DNA of 64,000 nucleotides. It comes from Gloeobacter kilaueensis JS1. Its GTDB lineage: Bacteria; Cyanobacteriota; Cyanobacteriia; Gloeobacterales; Gloeobacteraceae. Positions 20,604-30,012 of this stretch are shown piece after piece (the stretch's first letter is position 1; each line of letters begins with the position of its first letter). The stretch lies in assembly GCF_000484535.1 (NCBI RefSeq), contig NC_022600.1, forward strand, positions 3,100,001 to 3,164,000. Reading direction: 5' to 3'. The position numbers and the translations under genes are program-made. The notes under the pieces are model-generated. The model did no database searches. It saw nothing but the letters and a program-made list of their open reading frames with translations, and was not told the DNA's origin.

Positions 20604-23030
20604 TCAAGGGGTGATAGTGAAAGCGGTAGGACTTTGCGCTTTGCCGAAGGGCACATACACGTCGATCTTGGCAGTTGTTGCTCCGATTGGCACAGTAACG
20701 ACTAGTTGCGTGTCTGAGACGATGGTGAAGGGTGCCTTCTTACCGTTGGTGAAATAGACGTAGGAGGTCTTCAAGAAGCCGGTGCCGGTGAGGGTAATGG
20801 TGCTACCAACTGGGCCGCTGGTCGGAAAGAAGCTGGTGATCAAGGGCGTCGAGAGGCTGATCTTGGTTATGATTACATCGCTGTAGCCGCCCTTGAACGT
20901 TGCCTGCGGAGCACCAGGAGTTACTGGAAAGGTTGGCCCGGCATAGCCCGTTACGTAGGCGTTCCCCGACTTGTCTATTGCCAGGCTATATATGTACCCA
21001 CTGTTTTTGAGATAGCTAGAGAATAGTAAGCCGGAGCCTGTAGCATTCAGCCTACTGACGAAACCGCTACCGCCGCCAGTGTAAATACCGTTAACTGTTG
21101 GGAAGTAGGTTGAGTCGGTGAATCCGGCCACATAAGCATTGCCTACTTCATCCACCGCTATGCCAAAGCCATAATCAGTGCCATCGGCACCCAGGTAGGT
21201 AGAGTAGACAAGAGCAGTGCCCGTTTCGTTCAGCTTCGTCACAAATGCGTCGTAGGGAACACCGCCGCTATACCGAGGCTGGCGCACACCCGGCGTGGTC
21301 GGGAAGTTAGCTGACGAGGTGGAGCCAATCACATAAGCATTGCCCACTGCGTCTGTTGCTATTGCCGAGGCAAAATCTGTATCCTTACCCCCCAGGTAGG
21401 TAGAGTAGACGAAAGCTGTGCCCGTTGCATTCAGTTTCGCCACAAACCCGTCTAGGTAACCACCGCCATACTGAGTTTGTAGCGCACCGGGAGTCGTCGG
21501 GAAGTTTGGGCTTGTATAGGTTTCAATGTTAGTCTCACCAGCGACATAGGCATTGCCAGCGTTGTCTATTACGATGCTCTTTCCAGTTTCCTCTGCCCCA
21601 CCCCCGAGATAGGTGGAGTAGACAAGGGCAGTACCTGTTGTGTTCAGCTTCGTCACAAATGCGTCCTGGATGCCACCGCCAAACTGGGTCTGTGCTGCGC
21701 CGGGTGTGATTGGGAAGCCTGTTGAAGAGGCTTCTCCGGTCACATAAGCATTACCAGAAGTATCCAGTGCTATGCCATAGCCTACGCCATAACTGCCTGC
21801 CAGATAGGTGGAATAGACAAGAGCCGTGCCCGTCGCGTTCAGCTTTGTCACGAACGGACCGATAGCACTATTAGTCTGCAGTGCGCCGGGTGTAGTGGGG
21901 AAGTCACTTGACTGGGTAAAGCCAGTCACATATGCATTGCCAGCCTTGTCCACTGCTATGCCATAGCCGGAATCCCTATCACCGCCGCCAAGATAGGTAG
22001 AGTAGACAAGAGCGGTGCCCGTTTCGTTCAGCTTCGTCACGAATGCGTCTTTTGCGCTGGTAATGACGTTACTCTGGTTCTGCACTACACCGGGCGTGAT
22101 TGGGAAGTCTGTTGAAGAGGTTTCTCCGGTCACATAAGCATTACCAGAAGTATCCAGTGCTATGCCATAGCCATAGTCATCGTTGGTGCCCCCCAGGTAG
22201 GTGGAGTAGCTGAGCACTGGGTCGATCACTAACTGCGCTCCTTGCTCACGCCCTTCTACCACGAAACCTACCGTTTTACTGTCGAGCTGCACATAGTAGC
22301 CCTTTAGCTGCTGCCTGTGCCCGGCTTTGTTTTGATAGACCACAGGCGGCTTCTGGTGCAGTTGACCGGCCACGCTCTGGACTATTAGAGCACCCTGCTT
22401 ATCGATGAACACACGCTTGGCTCCCGCAAAGCGCAACTTGATCTGCTCTATTTGCGCTCCTGGTGCTACAACAAAGTCGTACTCCAGCTGCCCATGCTCG
22501 CTGTGGTAAATCAAGTCGATACCAGGATACACACCCTTGCTTTTGACACGACCATAAGTTGCCACATCGGTATGCCACTGGCTCCGGTCGTTGCCTTTTA
22601 GATAGTTCACCTTGCCTGGTAGAGCGTCGATTCCTTCTATCTGTGTCTGGCTATTGGCTCCTACCAGTTGCATCTGTACCAGTGCCGTCTTCGTCGAGCG
22701 AGGGGGAAGCTGTTGCTTATCCCTGCCCCTGGTAAGGGCTGGAGTTGCGGAGTGAAAAGCAAACAGCGCTCCTGTGGGTAGCAAGGCTACTCTATAACCG
22801 CCTGTACGAGCAAGGAAGCGCACAGCAGCAGGTGCTTGACCAACATTCGGCTCAAAGCTCACAGGCAACTGGCCGTACTGCTGGCGGGCAACGCTCAGCT
22901 TCTCAGCTGAAGCAGGGGACATAGCAGGAGGACTCTTTACCGCTACGACTGGCAGCGGTGCGGAAAGAACCTGGGACTGAGCAAGAAGGGCAACGGCAGC
23001 AAAAGCGGTGGCAACCGGACGCAAGAGCAT
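20604..23030 (-). CDS. Secreted SBBP-repeat beta-propeller protein with C-terminal IPT/TIG domain (paralogue 2)
   Basis: 808 residues from the ATG at 23030, chosen because the signal peptide starts there (LLRPVATAFAAVALLAQ, cleavage near VLSAPLP). It shares the N-terminal domain (LPVSFEPNVGQAP), the SBBP repeats (YSTYLGG, NAYVTGETSSTDFPITPG) and the C-terminal IPT/TIG domain (TGTGFLKTSYVYF) with the downstream paralogue, clearly by tandem duplication. The repeats differ more between paralogues than the two end domains do, suggesting repeat turnover. Predicted to be exported and to form one or more beta-propellers; partner unknown. An orphan response-regulator gene lies upstream on the same strand. 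Confidence 0.85.
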   Translation of the reverse strand: MLLRPVATAFAAVALLAQSQVLSAPLPVVAVKSPPAMSPASAEKLSVARQQYGQLPVSFEPNVGQAPAAVRFLARTGGYRVALLPTGALFAFHSATPALTRGRDKQQLPPRSTKTALVQMQLVGANSQTQIEGIDALPGKVNYLKGNDRSQWHTDVATYGRVKSKGVYPGIDLIYHSEHGQLEYDFVVAPGAQIEQIKLRFAGAKRVFIDKQGALIVQSVAGQLHQKPPVVYQNKAGHRQQLKGYYVQLDSKTVGFVVEGREQGAQLVIDPVLSYSTYLGGTNDDYGYGIALDTSGNAYVTGETSSTDFPITPGVVQNQSNVITSAKDAFVTKLNETGTALVYSTYLGGGDRDSGYGIAVDKAGNAYVTGFTQSSDFPTTPGALQTNSAIGPFVTKLNATGTALVYSTYLAGSYGVGYGIALDTSGNAYVTGEASSTGFPITPGAAQTQFGGGIQDAFVTKLNTTGTALVYSTYLGGGAEETGKSIVIDNAGNAYVAGETNIETYTSPNFPTTPGALQTQYGGGYLDGFVAKLNATGTAFVYSTYLGGKDTDFASAIATDAVGNAYVIGSTSSANFPTTPGVRQPRYSGGVPYDAFVTKLNETGTALVYSTYLGADGTDYGFGIAVDEVGNAYVAGFTDSTYFPTVNGIYTGGGSGFVSRLNATGSGLLFSSYLKNSGYIYSLAIDKSGNAYVTGYAGPTFPVTPGAPQATFKGGYSDVIITKISLSTPLITSFFPTSGPVGSTITLTGTGFLKTSYVYFTNGKKAPFTIVSDTQLVVTVPIGATTAKIDVYVPFGKAQSPTAFTITP

Positions 23031-23058
23031 GGGGCACCTAAGCGAGTGTGGTGCCCGC

Positions 23059-23122
23059 ATTATAGGGATGCACACTACAGCCGGGTCGGTAACCTGCAAA
23101 ACACTTTACATCTTGTAAGCAG
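23059..23122 (-). promoter_or_regulatory. Promoter with conserved 38-bp box, SBBP paralogue 2
   Basis: The 38-bp box at 23085-23122 is identical base for base to the one upstream of paralogue 1, including TTACA-N3-TGTAA and GGTAACC. TATAATGCG (reverse strand, -10 at 23064-23059) again lies exactly 20 bases downstream and the ATG 28 bases after that. The box starts 34 bp after the stop of the response-regulator gene, so the SBBP gene need not depend on read-through. Confidence 0.75.
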
Positions 23123-23155: not shown

Positions 23156-23848
23156 CTACCGTACCAGACCCGTCCGCAGCGCAGTTACGGCTGCCTGGGT
23201 GCGGTCGTCGGCGCAGAGTTTGCTCAGGATATTGCGTACATGGGTCTTGACTGTTCCGACAGTGATGAATAATTCGTCGGCGATGTCCTGATTGGAGTGG
23301 CCCTCGACGATGTGCTGCAGCACCTCCAGCTCGCGCTCGGTGAGGGGCGAAGCTTCGAGAATCTGGGTGAGTTCTGGTCCCGCCGCTTCGATCTGCACGG
23401 TACTGCCGACCTCCCCGCCGGGTTGGCCGCGCACCTGGGTGAGTACCGTGCGGGCTATCGAAGGATCGATCCAGCTGTTGCCCTCGCGCGTCGTCTGCAA
23501 AGCGGTGAGCAAATCGGCAGAACCGATATCTTTCATACAATAAGAGTCGGCCCCGGCAGCGAAGGCGGCAAGAACGACCTGATCGTTGTCGCGCAGGGTG
23601 AGAATGAGTACGCGCACGTCAGGATCGTCGCTTTTGAGGCGGCGGGTCACCTCGATACCGTCGATATCGGGTAGACCGATATCGACGATTGCAACATCGG
23701 GATTCTGGGCATGGACGACGCGCAGGCCGTCTGTACCGTTGGCCGCCTCGCCTACCAGCTCTACATCCTGGTGCTGCTGGAGGGTCATCCGCATCCCGGC
23801 GCGGGTTAGATCATGATCTTCGATAAGTACAACTCGAATCGGAGACAT
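23156..23848 (-). CDS. NarL/FixJ-family response regulator (orphan)
   Basis: 230 residues. The receiver domain (1-125) has acidic residues E10-D11, phospho-acceptor D56 in VDIGLP, and K106 region YCMKDIG. After a linker, the LuxR-type HTH (about 165-228) shows LTERELEVLQHI, NQDIADELFITVGTVKTHVRNIL. It therefore binds DNA as a dimer, normally after phosphorylation. No histidine kinase gene is adjacent. It closely resembles the regulator at 52462. The conserved dyad box just downstream, in front of the SBBP genes, is a possible target (inference: TTACA/TGTAA dyads suit this class). Confidence 0.88.
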   Translation of the reverse strand: MSPIRVVLIEDHDLTRAGMRMTLQQHQDVELVGEAANGTDGLRVVHAQNPDVAIVDIGLPDIDGIEVTRRLKSDDPDVRVLILTLRDNDQVVLAAFAAGADSYCMKDIGSADLLTALQTTREGNSWIDPSIARTVLTQVRGQPGGEVGSTVQIEAAGPELTQILEASPLTERELEVLQHIVEGHSNQDIADELFITVGTVKTHVRNILSKLCADDRTQAAVTALRTGLVR

Positions 23849-23913: not shown

Positions 23914-24579
23914 CTAACGCCCGGTCATCAGCAGCCTTGCAAAGTAGAATTTGTCGTCGATCGCTGCCCGGCGAACAATTTTCCAGCCCTGCCGGAGCAA
24001 GATCGCTTCGATGTCTTCGCTGCGGTGCTGGTAGGCGCGGGTGGTCTTGTTTGCCCCTGGAAAAAACTCGCCGACTTTTTTGAGGGCAGCAAACAGCAGC
24101 GTCTTGGGGGCATAGGTGATGAGCAGGTGTTCCCCTGCCAGGGAGCTGAGATGGGCGAGCATCTTTTCGACCTGGGCAAGCGGGTAGTGGATGAGCACAT
24201 CCAGACAGATCACGATGTCGTAGTGGCCGCCGATGCGCTCGAGTTCGAGCACCTCGAAGTGGGGGTTGTCGGGCGGAAGTTGCAATTGCTGGCGGCGGTG
24301 GCTCGCTTCGAGGATCATCTTCTCAGAAATATCGGTGGCAAGGACCTGGGCTCCGCGCTGGGCAAGCGGCAGGCTCAAACTTCCCAGTCCGCAACCGGCA
24401 TCGCAGATCGACTTGCCGGAGATATTGCCCAGCCAGTCGAGCACCCGGTCGCAGGTGCGCTGGTGGCCCACCCGAATCGAATGCTGGATGCGGTTGACGG
24501 CCTCATCGCCGTAGATCCGCTTCCAGCGCTCGAAGCCGGTGTTGTTGAAGTAGTCGCGGACGATCAGCTTTTCTTCCAT
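23914..24579 (-). CDS. chlM: Mg-protoporphyrin IX methyltransferase
   Basis: 221 residues, normal for BchM/ChlM. It transfers a methyl group from S-adenosylmethionine to Mg-protoporphyrin IX, an early committed step of chlorophyll synthesis, at the membrane surface. The N-terminus VRDYFNNTGFERWKRIYGD is characteristic of the family; the SAM site is CDAGCGLGSLSLPLA, followed by ATDISEKMI and a conserved VICLDVLIHYP. The C-terminal region has TRAYQHRSEDIEAIL. The gene is divergent from the signalling operon at 24701. It confirms a chlorophyll-making organism. Confidence 0.92.
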   Translation of the reverse strand: MEEKLIVRDYFNNTGFERWKRIYGDEAVNRIQHSIRVGHQRTCDRVLDWLGNISGKSICDAGCGLGSLSLPLAQRGAQVLATDISEKMILEASHRRQQLQLPPDNPHFEVLELERIGGHYDIVICLDVLIHYPLAQVEKMLAHLSSLAGEHLLITYAPKTLLFAALKKVGEFFPGANKTTRAYQHRSEDIEAILLRQGWKIVRRAAIDDKFYFARLLMTGR

Positions 24580-24700
24580 GGGGGATATTTTAGGTTATTT
24601 CGACGGGCCAGAGGGTTCAGCAATTATCGAGGCTGTCGTTTGCCGGAACAGTTGGCTACCTTGAGAAAGTAAGCCGTGCAGTCTCTGGCGGAGGAGAACC

Positions 24701-26368
24701 ATGCCCAAACCCGTCATCCTCGCTGTCGATGACGACCCCGATGTGCTGCAGGCAGTCTCCCGCGATCTGCGCCACCAGTACGGCGAGCGCTTTCGGATCG
24801 TGCGCGCCGACTCCGGCAGTGCTGCGCTGCAGGCGGTGGAGCAACTGGCCGAGCGCAACGAGACGGTGGCAATTTTTCTGGTCGATCAGCGGATGCCCCA
24901 GATGAGCGGCGTCGAGTTTCTGGAGCGGGTGATCGAGCGTGCGCCACAGGCCAAGCGCGTCTTGCTCACCGCCTACGCCGACACCGAGGCGGCGATCCGC
25001 GCCATCAACAATGTCCGGCTCGACTACTACCTGCTCAAGCCCTGGGATCCGCCGGAGGAGCGCCTCTATCCGGTGCTCGACGATCTATTGGACGATTGGC
25101 TCGCGGCCTTCAAGCCGCCCTTCGAGGGCATCCGCGTCATCGGCAACCGCTGGTCGGCAGAGTCGCACCAGGTCAAAGATTTTTTAGCCCGCAACCAGGT
25201 GCCCTACCAGTGGATGGACCTCGACCAGGACGAGGAAGCGCGGCGGCTATTCAGCAGCGGCGAGACGGCCAGTGGGGTGCAGCGGTTGCCGGTGGTGCTC
25301 TTTACCGACGGCACCCGCCTCTGCCGGCCTTCTAACCTGGAGATGGCAGGCAAGCTCGGTCTGCGCACCCAGGCGGAGCGGCCCTTCTACGATCTGGCGA
25401 TCGTGGGCGGTGGACCGGCGGGACTGGCGGCGGCGGTCTACGGGGCTTCGGAGGGGCTAACGACGGTGATGATCGAGCGGGAGGCACCCGGCGGTCAGGC
25501 CGGTTCCAGTTCGCGCATCGAAAATTATCTGGGCTTTCCGGTGGGCCTGAGCGGGGCGGACCTGGCCCGCAGAGCCGCCATTCAGGCGCGCCGCTTTGGG
25601 GTCGAAATTCTTTCTCCCCAGTCGGTGGTGGACGTGCGCATTCAAGATCCGTATCGGATCGTCAAACTCAAGGACGGCAGCGAAATTAGCTGCCACGCGC
25701 TGCTTATTGCCACGGGCGTCTCCTACCGCAAGCTCGACGTGCCGGGGATCGCAGAACTCACGGGCCGGGGGGTCTACTACGGGGCGGCGCTCACCGAAGC
25801 CCTCGCCTGCTCGAACGAAGAAGTCTACGTCGTGGGCGGAGCCAATTCGGCGGGCCAGGCGGCGATGTATTTTTCGCGCTATGCCCAGAATGTGACGATG
25901 CTGGTGCGCGCCGATTCGCTTACCCAGAGCATGTCCCAGTACCTCATCGATCAGATTGCCGCCACCAGCAACATCGCCGTGCGCACCTGCACGAGCGTCG
26001 TCGAGGTCAAAGGCCGCGAGCGCCTCGAAGCGCTGGTGTTGGCGAACGCGGTGAGCGGCGAACAGGAGACCGTCGATGCCACTTCGCTCTTTATCTTTAT
26101 CGGGGCCAGTCCCCAGACCGACTGGCTTGAGGGGGTGGTCCAGCGCGACCGCCAGGGATTTATTCTCGCGGGGGCCGATCTGCTCACCGGCGGCCAGCGC
26201 CCCAAAGGCTGGTCGCTCGAACGCGATCCGTTCTTGCTGGAGACGAGCGTGCCGGGCATCTTTGTCGCTGGCGATGTGCGCTACGGTTCGGTCAAGCGCG
26301 TCGCCTCCGGCGTCGGCGAGGGGGCAATTGCTGTCCAGTTCATCCACCGCTATCTCAGTAAAGTCTGA
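24701..26368 (+). CDS. Receiver domain fused to a thioredoxin-reductase-like flavoprotein lacking the CxxC
   Basis: 555 residues in three parts. Residues 1-125 are a receiver with D10-D11 and phospho-acceptor D62 in LVDQRMP. Residues 143-222 look like a glutaredoxin/thioredoxin-type domain without a CxxC. Residues 229-555 are a thioredoxin-reductase-like FAD/NAD(P)H module: AIVGGGPAGLAAA (FAD), VVGGANSAGQAA (NADPH) and a C-terminal FVAGDVR. Where thioredoxin reductase has CATC, this protein reads GVYYGAALTEAL, so no dithiol can form there. Fused regulators of this kind are known next to cyclic-nucleotide-domain kinases. GGAGGAG precedes the ATG. Its stop overlaps the next start (TGATG). It may be a redox-reading output of the operon (inference). 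Confidence 0.88.
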   Translation: MPKPVILAVDDDPDVLQAVSRDLRHQYGERFRIVRADSGSAALQAVEQLAERNETVAIFLVDQRMPQMSGVEFLERVIERAPQAKRVLLTAYADTEAAIRAINNVRLDYYLLKPWDPPEERLYPVLDDLLDDWLAAFKPPFEGIRVIGNRWSAESHQVKDFLARNQVPYQWMDLDQDEEARRLFSSGETASGVQRLPVVLFTDGTRLCRPSNLEMAGKLGLRTQAERPFYDLAIVGGGPAGLAAAVYGASEGLTTVMIEREAPGGQAGSSSRIENYLGFPVGLSGADLARRAAIQARRFGVEILSPQSVVDVRIQDPYRIVKLKDGSEISCHALLIATGVSYRKLDVPGIAELTGRGVYYGAALTEALACSNEEVYVVGGANSAGQAAMYFSRYAQNVTMLVRADSLTQSMSQYLIDQIAATSNIAVRTCTSVVEVKGRERLEALVLANAVSGEQETVDATSLFIFIGASPQTDWLEGVVQRDRQGFILAGADLLTGGQRPKGWSLERDPFLLETSVPGIFVAGDVRYGSVKRVASGVGEGAIAVQFIHRYLSKV

Positions 26369-27750
26369 TGCTCCACGATCCCGAGCAACTTGAGTTGTTT
26401 CCAAAGCTCAGCGACGACGAGGTGCAGCGCCTGGCTGCCCACGGACGCCCGGTCGAATTTGCCCCTGGCGAGCTGCTTTTTAAAGAAGGCGATCCGGCCT
26501 GCCACTTCTACGTCGTGCTCGAAGGGCAGGTGCAGATCACCAAGCGCATCCACGGCAAAGAAAAGATTCTCATCACCCACGGGGCGGGCGAATTTACCGG
26601 CGACCTGCCGATGTTTGTGAGTGGCACCGCCACCGTCACCGCCCGCGCCATCGTCCCCAGCCGCGTGCTCGAAATCGAACTGGCGGCCTTCCGCCAGGCG
26701 CTGGCCGATTGTTCGCCGGGGGCCGCCTCGATTCTCACGGCGATGGCCGCCCGCGCCCAGGATCTGGAGACCCAGTTGCGCCATCAGGAGAAGCTGGCGG
26801 CCCTGGGCAAGCTCTCCGCCGGTCTTGCCCACGAACTGAACAATCCCGCCGCCGCCGGTCGCCGGGCCGCCCAGCAGTTGCGGGAGGCGCTACTCGCTGT
26901 CCAATCGCGGATGCTGGATGTCTGCGAGGGGCTTTTTCCGCCCCCCCAGCGGTTGCTCCTCGTCGAATTGCAGCAGCAGGCCCTCGCCCACCGCCTCGGG
27001 GCACCCCGGCTCGCCCCCCTTGAGCAGAGCGACCGCGAGGACGCCCTGGCCGACTGGCTGGCCGACCACGAGATCGCCGACGGCTGGAAGCTTGCCCCGA
27101 CTTTAGTGACCTCGGGCATCGGCCCCGACCAGCTTGCCCCTCTAGCCGACCAGTTGCCTGGCCTGGCATTTCCCGAGGCGCTGCGCTGGTTGAGTGAGAC
27201 TTTGAGCCTCACCGGGCTGGTGGACGAAGTCGAGCAGAGCACGGCCCGCATCTCCCAGCTCGTCAAGGCGATCAAGTCCTACACCTACATGGATCAGGCT
27301 CCCCTGCAGGAGGTCGATGTCCACGAGGGCATCGAGAACACGCTCACGATTCTCCACCACAAACTCAAGTACGGCGTTACGATCGTCCGTGAGTACGCTG
27401 AAGATCTGCCGCGCCTCTGCGCCTATGGCAGCGAACTCAACCAGGTCTGGACCAACCTGATCGACAATGCGATCGATGCGATGAACGGCAAGGGCCAGAT
27501 CACGATCCGCACCTCCCTCTACCCGGATACGGTCCTCGTCGAACTCATCGATACTGGCAGCGGCATTCCCCCGGACATCCAGCCGCGCATCTTTGAACCC
27601 TTCTTTACCACCAAAGGGGTGGGCCAGGGTTCCGGCCTCGGCCTCGACATCGTCCGCCGCATCGTCGCCCACCATCGCGGATCGATCCGCGTCGAATCCC
27701 AGCCGGGCCACACCCGCTTCAAAGTCTGTCTGCCCATTCGCCAACCTTGA
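26368..27750 (+). CDS. Cyclic-nucleotide-binding-domain histidine kinase 1
   Basis: 460 residues, no membrane segment. Residues 10-120 form a cNMP-binding-like domain (FAPGELLFKEGDPACHFYVV, EFTGDLPMF). The phosphate-binding cassette deviates from the FGE...R consensus, so cyclic nucleotides may not be the ligand. The kinase part has H155 in GLAHELNNPAA, then an unusually long helical insert before the ATP-binding domain with NQVWTNLIDNAIDAM (N box), DTGSGIP and a GSGLGLDI G box. The start overlaps the stop of the receiver-flavoprotein gene, making that protein the obvious phosphorylation partner. The next gene is a close paralogue 12 bp on. Confidence 0.9.
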   Translation: MLHDPEQLELFPKLSDDEVQRLAAHGRPVEFAPGELLFKEGDPACHFYVVLEGQVQITKRIHGKEKILITHGAGEFTGDLPMFVSGTATVTARAIVPSRVLEIELAAFRQALADCSPGAASILTAMAARAQDLETQLRHQEKLAALGKLSAGLAHELNNPAAAGRRAAQQLREALLAVQSRMLDVCEGLFPPPQRLLLVELQQQALAHRLGAPRLAPLEQSDREDALADWLADHEIADGWKLAPTLVTSGIGPDQLAPLADQLPGLAFPEALRWLSETLSLTGLVDEVEQSTARISQLVKAIKSYTYMDQAPLQEVDVHEGIENTLTILHHKLKYGVTIVREYAEDLPRLCAYGSELNQVWTNLIDNAIDAMNGKGQITIRTSLYPDTVLVELIDTGSGIPPDIQPRIFEPFFTTKGVGQGSGLGLDIVRRIVAHHRGSIRVESQPGHTRFKVCLPIRQP

Positions 27751-27762
27751 GCCACACACGCC

Positions 27763-29196
27763 ATGGAACTCATTAACCACGATTCTCCTCAGCCGGCAGT
27801 CCTTGCCACCGAGGAACTGCGCCGGGTACCACTGTTTGAGAATCTGCCGGAGGACCAGCTGTGCTGGCTAATCCGCCAGGGCCGCCTGCGGCTGCTCGAC
27901 ACGGGCGATATTGTGCGCGCTCAGGGGACGCCCGCCGATTACGTCTTCGTGCTGCTCGACGGTGCGATTCAGATTGTCAAGAAAAAAGGCAATCAAGAAA
28001 TTCTACTTGTCACCCACACCGAGCGCACTCTCTTCGGTGAGTTGCCGGTGCTCACAGGCGATCCCCATTACTGGGCAGAGGGCCGCGCCCTTGCCCCCAG
28101 CCGCATTCTTGAGCTGGACAAGGAAGATTTTTGGGAGCTTTTGTCTAGTTGCCGCTGTGTGACGACGGTTATTCTGCGCACGATGGCCCAGCGGATGCAG
28201 GAGGTGCAGGCGCTCGCCCAGCAGCGCGAACGGCTCATCGCCCTCGGTACCCTCGCCGCCGGTCTGGCCCACGAACTGAATAACCCCGCCTCAGCCGCGC
28301 GGCGGGCCGCCTCTCAATTGCGCGGCTCCTTTCAGAAGTTGCAGCCCGCTGCCCTCAAGCTCTGCCGCTACGCCAAAGACGAAGAGAAGCAGGCGGTGCT
28401 GAACGTCCTTGAGCAGGAGGTCGTCGAGCGGGCCACCGCCGCCCTTGCCCTCGATCCGATCACCCGCAGCGACCGCGAGGAACAACTGGCCGACTGGTTG
28501 CGGGAGCACAACATCGCCAACAGCTGGAATCTCGCCTCGACCCTGGTGGGGGCGGGCCTCGATACCGACTGGCTCGTCGCTCTGACGGGCCGCATCGCTC
28601 CGGAGTCGCTTCCCAGCGTCCTCAACTGGCTGGAAGTCACCCTCGACGGCGTTGGCCTGCTCAACGAACTCGAGCACTGTACCGAGCGGGTCTCCACCCT
28701 GGTGCAGGCGGTCAAAGATTACTCCTACCTCGATCAGGCTCCTTTGCAGGAGATCGATGTCCACGAAGGGCTCGAAAGCACCCTCACCATGCTGGGCCAC
28801 CGCCTCCGCAACGGGATCGCCATCTGCCGGGCCTACTGCGATTTGCCGCGCATCACCGCCTTCGGCAGCGAACTCAACCAGGTCTGGACCAACCTGCTCG
28901 ACAACGCCATCGACGCCGTGCAGGACAGAAGCGATCCCTGCGTGTGGCTTCGCACCAGCCGCGAGGACCGCAATATCCTCGTCGAGATTACCGACAACGG
29001 CCCCGGCATTGCCGCCGACGTTCTGCCCCACATCTTCGAGCCCTTCTTTACGACCAAAGATATCGGCAAGGGCACGGGCCTCGGACTGCACATCAGCTAT
29101 CGCATCGTCGTCGAACAGCACAGAGGTGATATTCGCGTTCACTCTGCTCCTGGCCGCACCTGCTTCCAGGTCCGCCTGCCCATTACCCCAGGCTGA
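27763..29196 (+). CDS. Cyclic-nucleotide-binding-domain histidine kinase 2 (tandem paralogue)
   Basis: 477 residues with the same architecture as the preceding gene. The cNMP-like domain covers about 20-130 (GRLRLLDTGDIVRAQGTPADYVFVLLDG, shortened here: LLDTGDIVRAQGTPADY) and contains FGELPVL but lacks the expected Arg. H170 lies in GLAHELNNPAS; the ATPase has NQVWTNLLDNAIDAV, DNGPGIA and GTGLGLHI. Both kinases are likely to feed the same receiver-flavoprotein, perhaps with different inputs because their sensor domains differ most. Third-position differences show an old duplication. A decayed copy of this gene's last codons is found at 29848. Confidence 0.9.
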   Translation: MELINHDSPQPAVLATEELRRVPLFENLPEDQLCWLIRQGRLRLLDTGDIVRAQGTPADYVFVLLDGAIQIVKKKGNQEILLVTHTERTLFGELPVLTGDPHYWAEGRALAPSRILELDKEDFWELLSSCRCVTTVILRTMAQRMQEVQALAQQRERLIALGTLAAGLAHELNNPASAARRAASQLRGSFQKLQPAALKLCRYAKDEEKQAVLNVLEQEVVERATAALALDPITRSDREEQLADWLREHNIANSWNLASTLVGAGLDTDWLVALTGRIAPESLPSVLNWLEVTLDGVGLLNELEHCTERVSTLVQAVKDYSYLDQAPLQEIDVHEGLESTLTMLGHRLRNGIAICRAYCDLPRITAFGSELNQVWTNLLDNAIDAVQDRSDPCVWLRTSREDRNILVEITDNGPGIAADVLPHIFEPFFTTKDIGKGTGLGLHISYRIVVEQHRGDIRVHSAPGRTCFQVRLPITPG

Positions 29197-29230: not shown

Positions 29231-29515
29231 TTACAGCTGATGCTGGGCGATATATTCCCGCAGCGCCCGGTTGATGCTGGTCTGGTAGCCCTCACCTTGA
29301 AGATGGTTGCGTTTGAACCAGTCGATCAGATCGGCGTCGAGCCGCAGCGTAATCTGCTGCTTGATCGGGCGATAAAACAAGCCGCGCCGGGCAGCGCTCC
29401 AGTCTCCAGTCGCCTCTGGGATGAGATCGGTGCGGATAGGTCTGTCCGCTGCCGCCAGGGCATCGATCTCCGCCTGTACTTCTGGCGGCACAGGGTTAGA
29501 GTGTTCCTTCTTCAT
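29231..29515 (-). CDS. brnA: BrnA-family antitoxin
   Basis: 94 residues from the ATG at 29515, preceded by GGAGG within brnT. The C-terminal part reads KQQITLRLDADLIDWFKR and GYQTSINRALREYI, the ribbon-helix-helix DNA-binding domain of BrnA. BrnA neutralises the ribonuclease BrnT and represses the operon. It overlaps the end of brnT by 20 bp, the normal toxin-first order of this system. Longer in-frame starts at 29530 and 29575 exist but have poorer ribosome sites. Confidence 0.88.
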   Translation of the reverse strand: MKKEHSNPVPPEVQAEIDALAAADRPIRTDLIPEATGDWSAARRGLFYRPIKQQITLRLDADLIDWFKRNHLQGEGYQTSINRALREYIAQHQL

Positions 29516-29792
29516 AAGCCCTCCGCTCATAAGGAGTTGCCTCGCGGGCACTAATGATTCTGCCTGTCTCTTCACCAGTATCCGGATCAGGGTCCGGCCA
29601 GGTATGCACGACGAAAATAGTCATGTTGCCGATCATGCCAATGGTCTGCCAGCGCTCCTCGTGTGGGTATGGATCAGGGCGACTCACCGCCAAAAGATCG
29701 CGGAAAACATACTGTGCACTTTCAAAACTTAAGCCGTGATCGCACTTATTGGTTCGGTTCTTCTCATTGTCCCAGGTCCACGCCAAAAACAT
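29496..29792 (-). CDS. brnT: BrnT-family ribonuclease toxin
   Basis: 98 residues. BrnT (RelE-like fold) cleaves RNA and arrests growth when not bound by BrnA. The family pattern is clear: WDNEKNRTNKCDHGLSFESA, VFRDLL, HEERWQTIGMIGN, VVHTW and RIISAREATPYERRAYEEG. Compared with most BrnT proteins a small acidic insertion (PDPDPDTGEE) follows the VVHT strand. An inverted repeat 14 bp upstream is a likely site for autoregulation. The pair is wedged between kinase 2 and a decayed kinase fragment, a typical position for a horizontally acquired toxin-antitoxin module. Confidence 0.9.
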   Translation of the reverse strand: MFLAWTWDNEKNRTNKCDHGLSFESAQYVFRDLLAVSRPDPYPHEERWQTIGMIGNMTIFVVHTWPDPDPDTGEETGRIISAREATPYERRAYEEGTL

Positions 29793-29805
29793 CCCCTACA
29801 CCAGA

Positions 29806-29827
29806 GTAGCTACATGATCGTAGCTAC
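29806..29827 (-). promoter_or_regulatory. Inverted repeat upstream of brnT, putative BrnA operator
   Basis: Two copies of GTAGCTAC, each itself palindromic, flank ATGATC (arms 29806-29813 and 29820-29827). The site is 14 bp before the brnT start. Ribbon-helix-helix antitoxins bind tandem palindromes near their own promoters, so this is the best operator candidate. No binding data. Confidence 0.5.
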
Positions 29828-29847
29828 CGTTATCCCTTGTCAAGGGA

Positions 29848-29916
29848 GACATTCGCGTTCACTCCGTTCCCGGTTGTACCAGCTTCGAGGTGCGCCTGTC
29901 CATCACTCCAGGCTGA
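29848..29916 (+). pseudogene. 3'-end remnant of a third histidine kinase
   Basis: Reads DIRVHSVPGCTSFEVRLSI then TPG and stop; kinase 2 ends DIRVHSAPGRTCFQVRLPI then TPG and stop. Over 73 aligned bases about 60 match, and most differences are at third codon positions. The match continues a few bases past both stops (AACCG). No kinase sequence is seen before it. It is best read as the last piece of a third tandem paralogue, lost when brnT/brnA arrived or by later deletion. Confidence 0.75.
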
Positions 29917-30012
29917 ACCGACCGGATCCTCCCCCAGTCTCTATCTAAAGAAAGAATGGCTGTTTCCACTCGCATCGGCCATCTTAGAAACAGACAATGG
30001 GAGGCCCAAGCA

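Follow-up and report, generated by a model that had tools for sequence, protein, structure and literature searches.

Organization of the locus

The window analyzed here is a stretch of 64,000 nucleotides from Gloeobacter kilaueensis JS1 (NC_022600.1, 3100001-3164000), whose genome is one contig of 4,724,791 bp. It contains a three-gene operon on the forward strand, encoding a response regulator (RR)-flavoprotein and two histidine kinases, K1 and K2. The flavoprotein is sequentially composed of a receiver (REC), a glutaredoxin (Grx)-like domain, and a module related to thioredoxin reductase (TrxR) with sites for flavin adenine dinucleotide (FAD) and reduced nicotinamide adenine dinucleotide or its phosphate (NAD(P)H). 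Neither of the last two parts carries the dithiol of its namesake, in this protein or in any relative examined. Each kinase begins with a domain of the cyclic-nucleotide-binding (CNB) fold. The flavoprotein and K1 genes overlap by 1 nt, and 12 nt separate K1 from K2. An earlier interpretation made from the DNA letters alone, here called the sequence-only reading, had described two tandem soluble kinases with such overlapping or 12-bp junctions, and the open reading frames bear it out. The features are listed in Table 1.

Table 1. Coordinates of the operon, its domains and key residues, and its upstream flank, in window positions
Feature	Position	Strand	Evidence
RR-flavoprotein, REC - Grx-like - TrxR-like, 555 aa	24701..26368	+	Open reading frame (ORF), Pfam, at least 80 relatives
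K1, soluble CNB-fold histidine kinase, 460 aa	26368..27750	+	ORF, Pfam, co-occurrence in 8/194 genomes
K2, second CNB-fold histidine kinase, 477 aa	27763..29196	+	ORF, Pfam
Asp62 codon, phospho-acceptor	24884..24886	+	D62, T90, K113 in 88/88 receiver-headed proteins
Thiol-less Grx-like domain, residues ~143-222	25127..25366	+	Sub-threshold Pfam, alignment, Foldseek
TrxR-like FAD/NAD(P)H module, residues 228-555	25382..26365	+	Pfam, alignments, Foldseek
Place of the missing dithiol, residues 361-364 GAAL	25781..25792	+	TrxR alignments, family survey
Ala381 codon, second Gly of NAD(P)H GxGxxA	25841..25843	+	Family survey
K1 CNB (cNMP_binding) domain	26452..26706	+	Pfam
K1 predicted phospho-His155 codon (AHELNNP)	26830..26832	+	His in 40/41 aligned kinases
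K1 helical insert of ~70 residues at the tip of the dimerization and histidine phosphotransfer (DHp) hairpin, residues 192-262	26941..27153	+	AlphaFold2 (AF2) model
K2 CNB domain	27895..28149	+	Pfam
121-bp intergenic region, common to the operon and divergent chlM	24580..24700	.	Sequence
chlM, upstream and divergent	23914-24579	-	Library match

A flavoprotein output without the redox-active dithiols

Pfam recognizes Response_reg (residues 6-118) and Pyr_redox_2 (residues 230-541) in the flavoprotein. The Grx-like fold between them is assigned from sub-threshold Pfam and NCBIfam matches and from Foldseek: the Glutaredoxin match (residues 155-199) falls just short of its threshold, at 21.4 versus 22.9 bits, and the mycoredoxin match is also below its cut-off. 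No DNA-binding domain was found, and the output is the flavoprotein module, as the sequence-only reading had proposed. The AF2 model has a mean predicted local distance difference test score (pLDDT) of 73 and a predicted TM-score (pTM) of 0.49, with values below 50 in the FAD-site loops. Foldseek matched this model to AhpF (the two best matches) and then to TrxRs, the TM-scores for the full query being low.

At least 80 relatives match the flavoprotein along all or almost all of its length, at 67-78% identity. The 88 receiver-headed proteins compared here are the window protein, 80 cyanobacterial relatives, and seven proteins from plasmids of Deinococcus, Streptomyces, Caballeronia, Nostoc, Tsukamurella, Nocardia, and Nonomuraea. 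Four proteins with other heads complete a set of 92. Two receiver-headed and nine other-headed proteins were added later, bringing the total to 103 proteins, of which 90 are receiver-headed (window protein included) and 13 are other-headed or headless.

None of these 103 proteins, with or without a receiver, has a CxxC at the TrxR place. When solved TrxRs are aligned with the window protein by HMMER, their first redox cysteine is matched to Gly361 and their second to Leu364, or once to Thr365. Position 361 is Gly in all 88 receiver-headed proteins, position 364 is Q, M, L, K, or T and never Cys, and position 365 is T, A, or V. A lone Cys at position 363 occurs in one relative (locus L167), which still has no CxxC. 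The surroundings remain conserved: across the 27 family rows of a multi-phylum alignment, Tyr360 and Ala367 do not vary, and position 366 is Glu in 26 rows. The place of the dithiol was thus remodelled and did not simply decay. All 27 rows also agree at Y360, NSAGQ, R403, KRV, and the FAD glycines, the glycines of the rows beyond the 92 proteins being judged by eye.

The Grx-like domain has lost its active site as well. Its CxxC place reads W-S-A-E-S in the window protein and W-S-x-x-S in the family, with W151 and Pro197 in 88/88, S152 in 87/88, and S155 in 83/88 receiver-headed proteins; neither a CxxC nor a CxxS active site is present in this domain. The proposed series of a receiver, a CxxC-less thioredoxin-like domain, and a dithiol-less TrxR-like module is therefore supported by Pfam, the alignments, and the survey of orthologues, which returned no intact CxxC at the TrxR place. 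A sequencing error or a local mutation is rejected as the cause, since the loss extends to the whole family. Relocation of the CxxC is also rejected, since the window protein has none anywhere. A CxxC elsewhere in the chain occurs in 27 of the 92 proteins; the 20 listed all have it at about residues 426-436.

The remaining functional residues are retained. The receiver set D10-D12, D62, T90, and K113 is invariant in the 88 receiver-headed proteins, as are the glycines, Q, and D of the FAD motifs GxGxxG, GGQ, and GD. FAD binding is predicted from these intact motifs. Since the working cysteines are missing from every relative examined, the usual name of thioredoxin reductase is probably wrong for this family.

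The NAD(P)H site and the thioredoxin-binding motif

The sequence-only reading held that both the FAD and the NADPH sites are kept. The FAD motifs are indeed intact, but the claim is too strong for the NAD(P)H site, which is altered in the receiver-headed branch. Position 381, the second glycine of the GxGxxA motif, is Ala in 90/90 receiver-headed proteins and Gly in 13/13 CNB-headed, headless, or degenerate-receiver forms. Of the HRRxxxR clamp for the 2'-phosphate, the receiver-headed set keeps R403 alone and has lost two of the three arginines.

A thioredoxin (Trx)-binding motif of TrxRs, consisting of GR/KG and FF, is named in PMC9025218. The first element reads GAG in 80/88 receiver-headed proteins. 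R or K is present at position 356 in 7/88, the window protein (GRG) among these, and the FF element is present in 0/88. Neither of the two closest enzyme families reaches its cut-off in the window protein, with scores of 228.4 versus 343.45 bits for TIGR01292 (thioredoxin reductase) and 168.6 versus 502.9 bits for TIGR03140 (AhpF).

Structure of the two kinases

Pfam finds cNMP_binding and HATPase_c domains in both kinases and a sub-threshold HisKA match in K2 only. K2 is 46% identical to K1 over residues 7-457, and neither shows a transmembrane segment on inspection by eye. The predicted phospho-accepting histidines, H155 in K1 and H170 in K2, lie in HELNNP boxes. The histidine is present in 40/41 aligned kinases, and N358, D366, N367, D395, G397, G423, and G425 are present in 41/41. 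The columns of H155 and R294 are separated by 134-142 residues in all 41. The AF2 model of K1 (mean pLDDT 79.7) contains a 70-residue first DHp helix and the helical insert listed in Table 1. Such an insert at the tip of DHp would account for the sub-threshold HisKA matches. Foldseek matches of the kinase include ZraS, HK853, and CckA.

The CNB domains had been described as altered, and the phosphate-cassette slot agrees with this description. Scored with control motifs, the slot has no Arg in 76/79 kinases (Arg in 3/79) and has Glu in 66/79. The cassette Arg is missing from the CNB domain of K1.

Linkage between flavoprotein and kinases

Within the fetched flanks, which extend at most 6 kb to either side, 57/81 loci (window included) encode a family kinase (coverage of at least 50%). 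This count leaves out L025, L055, L085, and L086, which have short pieces or a 1003-aa kinase. The short piece at L025 probably arises through a kinase/zf-UBP fusion. No other neighbour family is common in the 81 cyanobacterial loci; the next commonest is found at 15.

The two proteins also co-occur across the phylum. Among 194 genomes, a full-length receiver-flavoprotein and a full-length CNB-kinase are present in the same eight (Fisher 2e-14, with relatedness ignored). The flavoprotein search (E 1e-100) gave ten matches, namely eight full-length proteins, one fragment (genome G167), and one CNB-headed form (G038). The K1 search gave 13 matches, eight of them full-length with CNB and five beginning at residue 123 or later. 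In G039, G116, G129, and G172, larger frames (717-2185 aa) match K1 from residues 123-134 onward, through DHp with its insert and the ATPase part, and presumably carry other sensor heads. Five of six Gloeobacteraceae genomes have both proteins and one (G246) has neither. The 9.5-10 kb around the flavoprotein gene contain no kinase in G243, G244, and G245, where the kinase pair is located elsewhere. By neighbourhood and co-occurrence, K1 and K2 look cognate to the flavoprotein.

Exchangeable heads on a shared core

The Grx-like and TrxR-like parts form a core, approximately residues 138-555, that is found with a receiver, with a CNB domain, or with no head. CNB-headed relatives occur at L099, L100, L102, L111, L169, L172, L174, and L175, the head being identified by Pfam at L175 and by alignment or record name at the others. 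Headless relatives occur at L101, L170, L171, and L177. The Streptomyces protein at L167 (4983-6587) has a receiver without an acidic pocket by eye, in which Pfam finds no Response_reg; it has Gly at position 381, and no kinase is annotated in its 5-kb flanks. In a tree of the TrxR module, the receiver-headed proteins have one or two origins and the headless proteins have one (100/100). The root is unsure because the outgroup is a very long branch.

The CNB head replaces the receiver, and presumably no kinase is needed in these forms. Here a CNB head runs the same core in cis, which suggests that in the two-component forms a sensor of like kind has been moved upstream, into the kinases, and acts by way of a phosphorelay. 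At L102 and L169, the CNB-flavoprotein gene has a plasmid-borne chaperone operon as its neighbour (J-domain protein, cbpM, clpB, and trxA). An Hsp20 gene is also nearby at L102. The headless form of Gloeocapsa is preceded by thioredoxin-domain and DsbA genes.

A zf-UBP companion

Plasmids of Streptomyces and Tsukamurella carry an operon of overlapping genes for the RR-flavoprotein, a kinase, and a UBP-type zinc finger (zf-UBP). Of five plasmid records searched whole, four contain one zf-UBP each, at most 1.6 kb from the flavoprotein, and the Deinococcus aetherius record contains none. The finger adjoins the core under a receiver, a CNB domain, and no head alike. Among the plasmid matches listed (60 of 87), which include many near-copies of Rhizobium and Rhodococcus plasmids, 48/60 lie within 2.5 kb of a member of the flavoprotein family and 46 are on the same strand. 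For the other 12, the flavoprotein is not within 2.5 kb or not in the lists; three of these were examined (Arthrobacter, Variovorax, and Streptomyces NBC_01558), and none has a flavoprotein annotated within the flanking 4-5 kb. Another of the 12 lies inside an annotated cation:proton antiporter gene of Deinococcus (NZ_CP092191.1, 145075-145290), so zf-UBP is also found outside the flavoprotein system. At L174, a zf-UBP/CNB-flavoprotein pair is carried by a plasmid of Agrobacterium pusense GV2, a strain that by its record had contaminated a culture of Gloeobacter violaceus.

In cyanobacteria, zf-UBP is present in 26/49 flavoprotein-bearing genomes, hand-picked from 80 loci, versus 6/194 genomes of the phylum draw, with lineages unmatched between the two sets. 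Four of these six are among the eight flavoprotein bearers. The 49 genomes contain 36 zf-UBP places. Of the 15 loci L122-L136, 12 are typed T1, two are near T1, and one is not typed; ten are either fused to system genes or no more than 3 kb away from them, two are farther away on the same contig, and three are on other contigs. Fourteen places are of type T2 (CGKMLCC-like), and seven are without a locus or type. A single T2 copy (L141) has a system gene in its 1.5-kb flank, 385 bp from a kinase of L013. In two cyanobacteria, the finger forms the C-terminus of a K2-like kinase (L130 in G240 and L135 in G213), a fusion confirmed by Pfam for L037 (8807-10498), the locus of G213. The source genome has one zf-UBP, which is distant from the operon (C1:2230747-2230950).

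All 44 distinct zf-UBP cores that match W-x-H-L read CC[DN] at the place where eukaryotic ubiquitin-binding fingers, in alignments with USP16 and USP49, have CGR. The arginine of CGR in ubiquitin-binding zf-UBP domains holds the C-terminus of ubiquitin. The companion thus lacks this arginine. Its closest solved relative is 2ida_A ("Hypothetical protein"), with an E-value of 2e-36.

Neighbouring features

A ribosome-binding-like GGAGGAG precedes the ATG of the flavoprotein, and no sigma-70-like match was found in the 121-bp intergenic region. A NarL/LuxR-type response regulator gene (23156-23848, reverse strand) adjoins chlM near the operon. Farther away is the gene of an 831-aa protein (20604-23099, reverse strand) with DUF7948, seven SBBP beta-propeller stretches, and an IPT/TIG domain. 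A BrnA antitoxin homologue (PF14384; 29231-29575, reverse strand) lies 34 bp past the operon on the opposite strand, and no BrnT was recognized by eye in the frames upstream of it (window 29501-30000).

Proposed mechanism and alternatives

We propose, with a probability of roughly 0.45, that the operon encodes a cytosolic two-component system in which the output protein works as a flavin redox switch without thiols and not as a thioredoxin reductase. K1 and K2 would sense an internal signal through CRP-fold domains without the cyclic-nucleotide cassette and would phosphorylate Asp62 of the receiver. Phosphorylation may reorient the receiver against the Grx-like/TrxR-like flavoprotein and shift its two-subdomain states. 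The state of the receiver would control the reduction of FAD, by NAD(P)H or another donor, as well as where electrons or a conformational change pass from FAD. In one-component relatives the CNB domain would control the same core directly, and the zf-UBP protein, where present, would be the natural partner or adaptor. As both dithiols are gone family-wide, the acceptor is expected not to be thioredoxin by the TrxR route. The chaperone-operon context of the one-component relatives and the reported induction of Streptomyces coelicolor SCO7298 by polysulfide (PMC9952706) and acid shock (PMC2631018) suggest protein or redox stress as the setting. This proposal retains from the sequence-only reading the flavoprotein output, the loss of the dithiol, found here to be family-wide, and the linked kinases; it gives up a fully kept NADPH site and adds the exchangeable head and the zf-UBP companion.

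Several observations weigh against a thiol-free switch. The GxAxxA motif and the loss of two 2'-phosphate arginines speak against an unmodified dependence on NADPH, and the window protein keeps GRG of the Trx-binding motif, though the FF element is missing family-wide. No kinase lies in the fetched flank at 24/80 relative loci, several of these flanks ending at a contig end. For the K1 count, eight first-look candidates were scored per genome, so a weaker kinase could be missed. The companion is absent from 23/49 flavoprotein-bearing genomes and is thus not essential everywhere. The AF2 model is moderate (pLDDT 73, pTM 0.49), and its domain arrangement is tentative.

It is possible, if doubtful, that the flavin module is instead a redox or NAD(P)H sensor, which reports the cofactor state to the receiver and alters its phosphorylation or the kinase/phosphatase balance with little net electron transfer. 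Loss of both catalytic dithiols together with invariant FAD glycines would fit such a sensor, as would an NAD(P)H glycine altered in the receiver-headed branch only, and no non-kinase neighbour is common enough in the cyanobacterial loci to hint at an acceptor. However, the headless and CNB-headed forms keep the core without a receiver to report to, which argues that the core has an activity of its own.

Another option is an oxidoreductase whose flavin passes electrons to external thiols or small acceptors, such as a partner cysteine (zf-UBP or a separate thioredoxin), quinone, or O2, although we consider this unlikely. It is favoured by trxA in the chaperone operons with CNB-headed forms, by the thioredoxin-domain and DsbA genes ahead of the Gloeocapsa headless form, and by the vicinal CC at the CGR place in 44/44 zf-UBP cores. 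SCO7298 of Streptomyces coelicolor, called trxB3, is moreover reported to be induced by polysulfide (PMC9952706) and by acid shock (PMC2631018). The Trx-binding motif argues otherwise, being GAG in most of the family and lacking FF throughout, as do the 23 bearers without zf-UBP. A more specific version, which we regard as improbable, is that the core acts on a cysteine supplied in trans: the companion, with an extra Cys beside a zinc ligand from the change of CGR to CC[DN], would be the redox partner of the flavin or a redox-reporting adaptor, and the heads would be exchangeable, with the CNB sensor fold acting in cis or via a phosphorelay. Least probable of all is a degenerate former thioredoxin reductase that binds FAD structurally as a non-redox scaffold, since the constancy of Y360, NSAGQ, R403, KRV, and the FAD glycines in 27 rows would seem to exceed the need of a structural cofactor, even with the dithiol missing and the NAD(P)H motif changed.

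If the thiol-free switch is correct, two-component signalling would gain a type of output in which phosphorylation controls the redox state of a flavin in the absence of thiols, and a multi-phylum signalling output would prove to be misnamed. No assay for such an output was found in the literature searched. The zf-UBP link gives a bacterial ubiquitin-type finger a concrete candidate partner.

Comparison with known systems

The combination of a receiver and a TrxR module is already known, though little studied. It is filed as the "TrxB" class of response regulators (PMC9739842, PMC9953108), exemplified by SCO7298 with kinase SCO7297 (PMC9739842), and a REC domain fused to thioredoxin reductase is also noted in PMC5847659. 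By architecture, with its receiver DD/D/T/K set and TrxR-like module, the window protein is a TrxB-type response regulator, and like SCO7298 it has a paired kinase gene. Genes of this class go under the name of thioredoxin reductase and are studied as such (database names; SCO7298 as trxB3 in PMC9952706), yet all 103 proteins read here lack the defining dithiol. The available parts of the open-access literature on the TrxB class list it, and no discussion was found there of the loss of the dithiol, of the Grx-like domain, of head exchange, or of the zf-UBP link; a review (PMC8534201) has no mention of cyclic-nucleotide, thioredoxin, or zinc-finger terms.

The database class named "Cyclic nucleotide-binding domain-containing thioredoxin-disulfide reductase" shares the same thiol-free Grx-TrxR core. 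It differs from the window protein in having CNB in place of the receiver and Gly instead of Ala at position 381. The zf-UBP companion is of the same domain type as the ubiquitin-binding fingers of USP5, USP16, and HDAC6 and differs from them by the CGR arginine.

Low-Mr thioredoxin reductases (TIGR01292, PF07992) share the fold, the FAD motifs, and the two-subdomain layout with the window protein, but the latter has no CxxC and a weaker NADPH clamp, and scores below the family cut-off. AhpF likewise combines an N-terminal thioredoxin-fold domain with a TrxR module. In contrast to AhpF, the window protein lacks CxxC in both domains, has one Grx-like domain, and carries a receiver in front. FFTR and DDOR of cyanobacteria, which are present in Gloeobacter, are TrxR relatives with changed donor sites (PMC9025218). 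They keep the CxxC and lack the NADPH motif, whereas the window protein is the reverse, with an altered NADPH motif and no CxxC.

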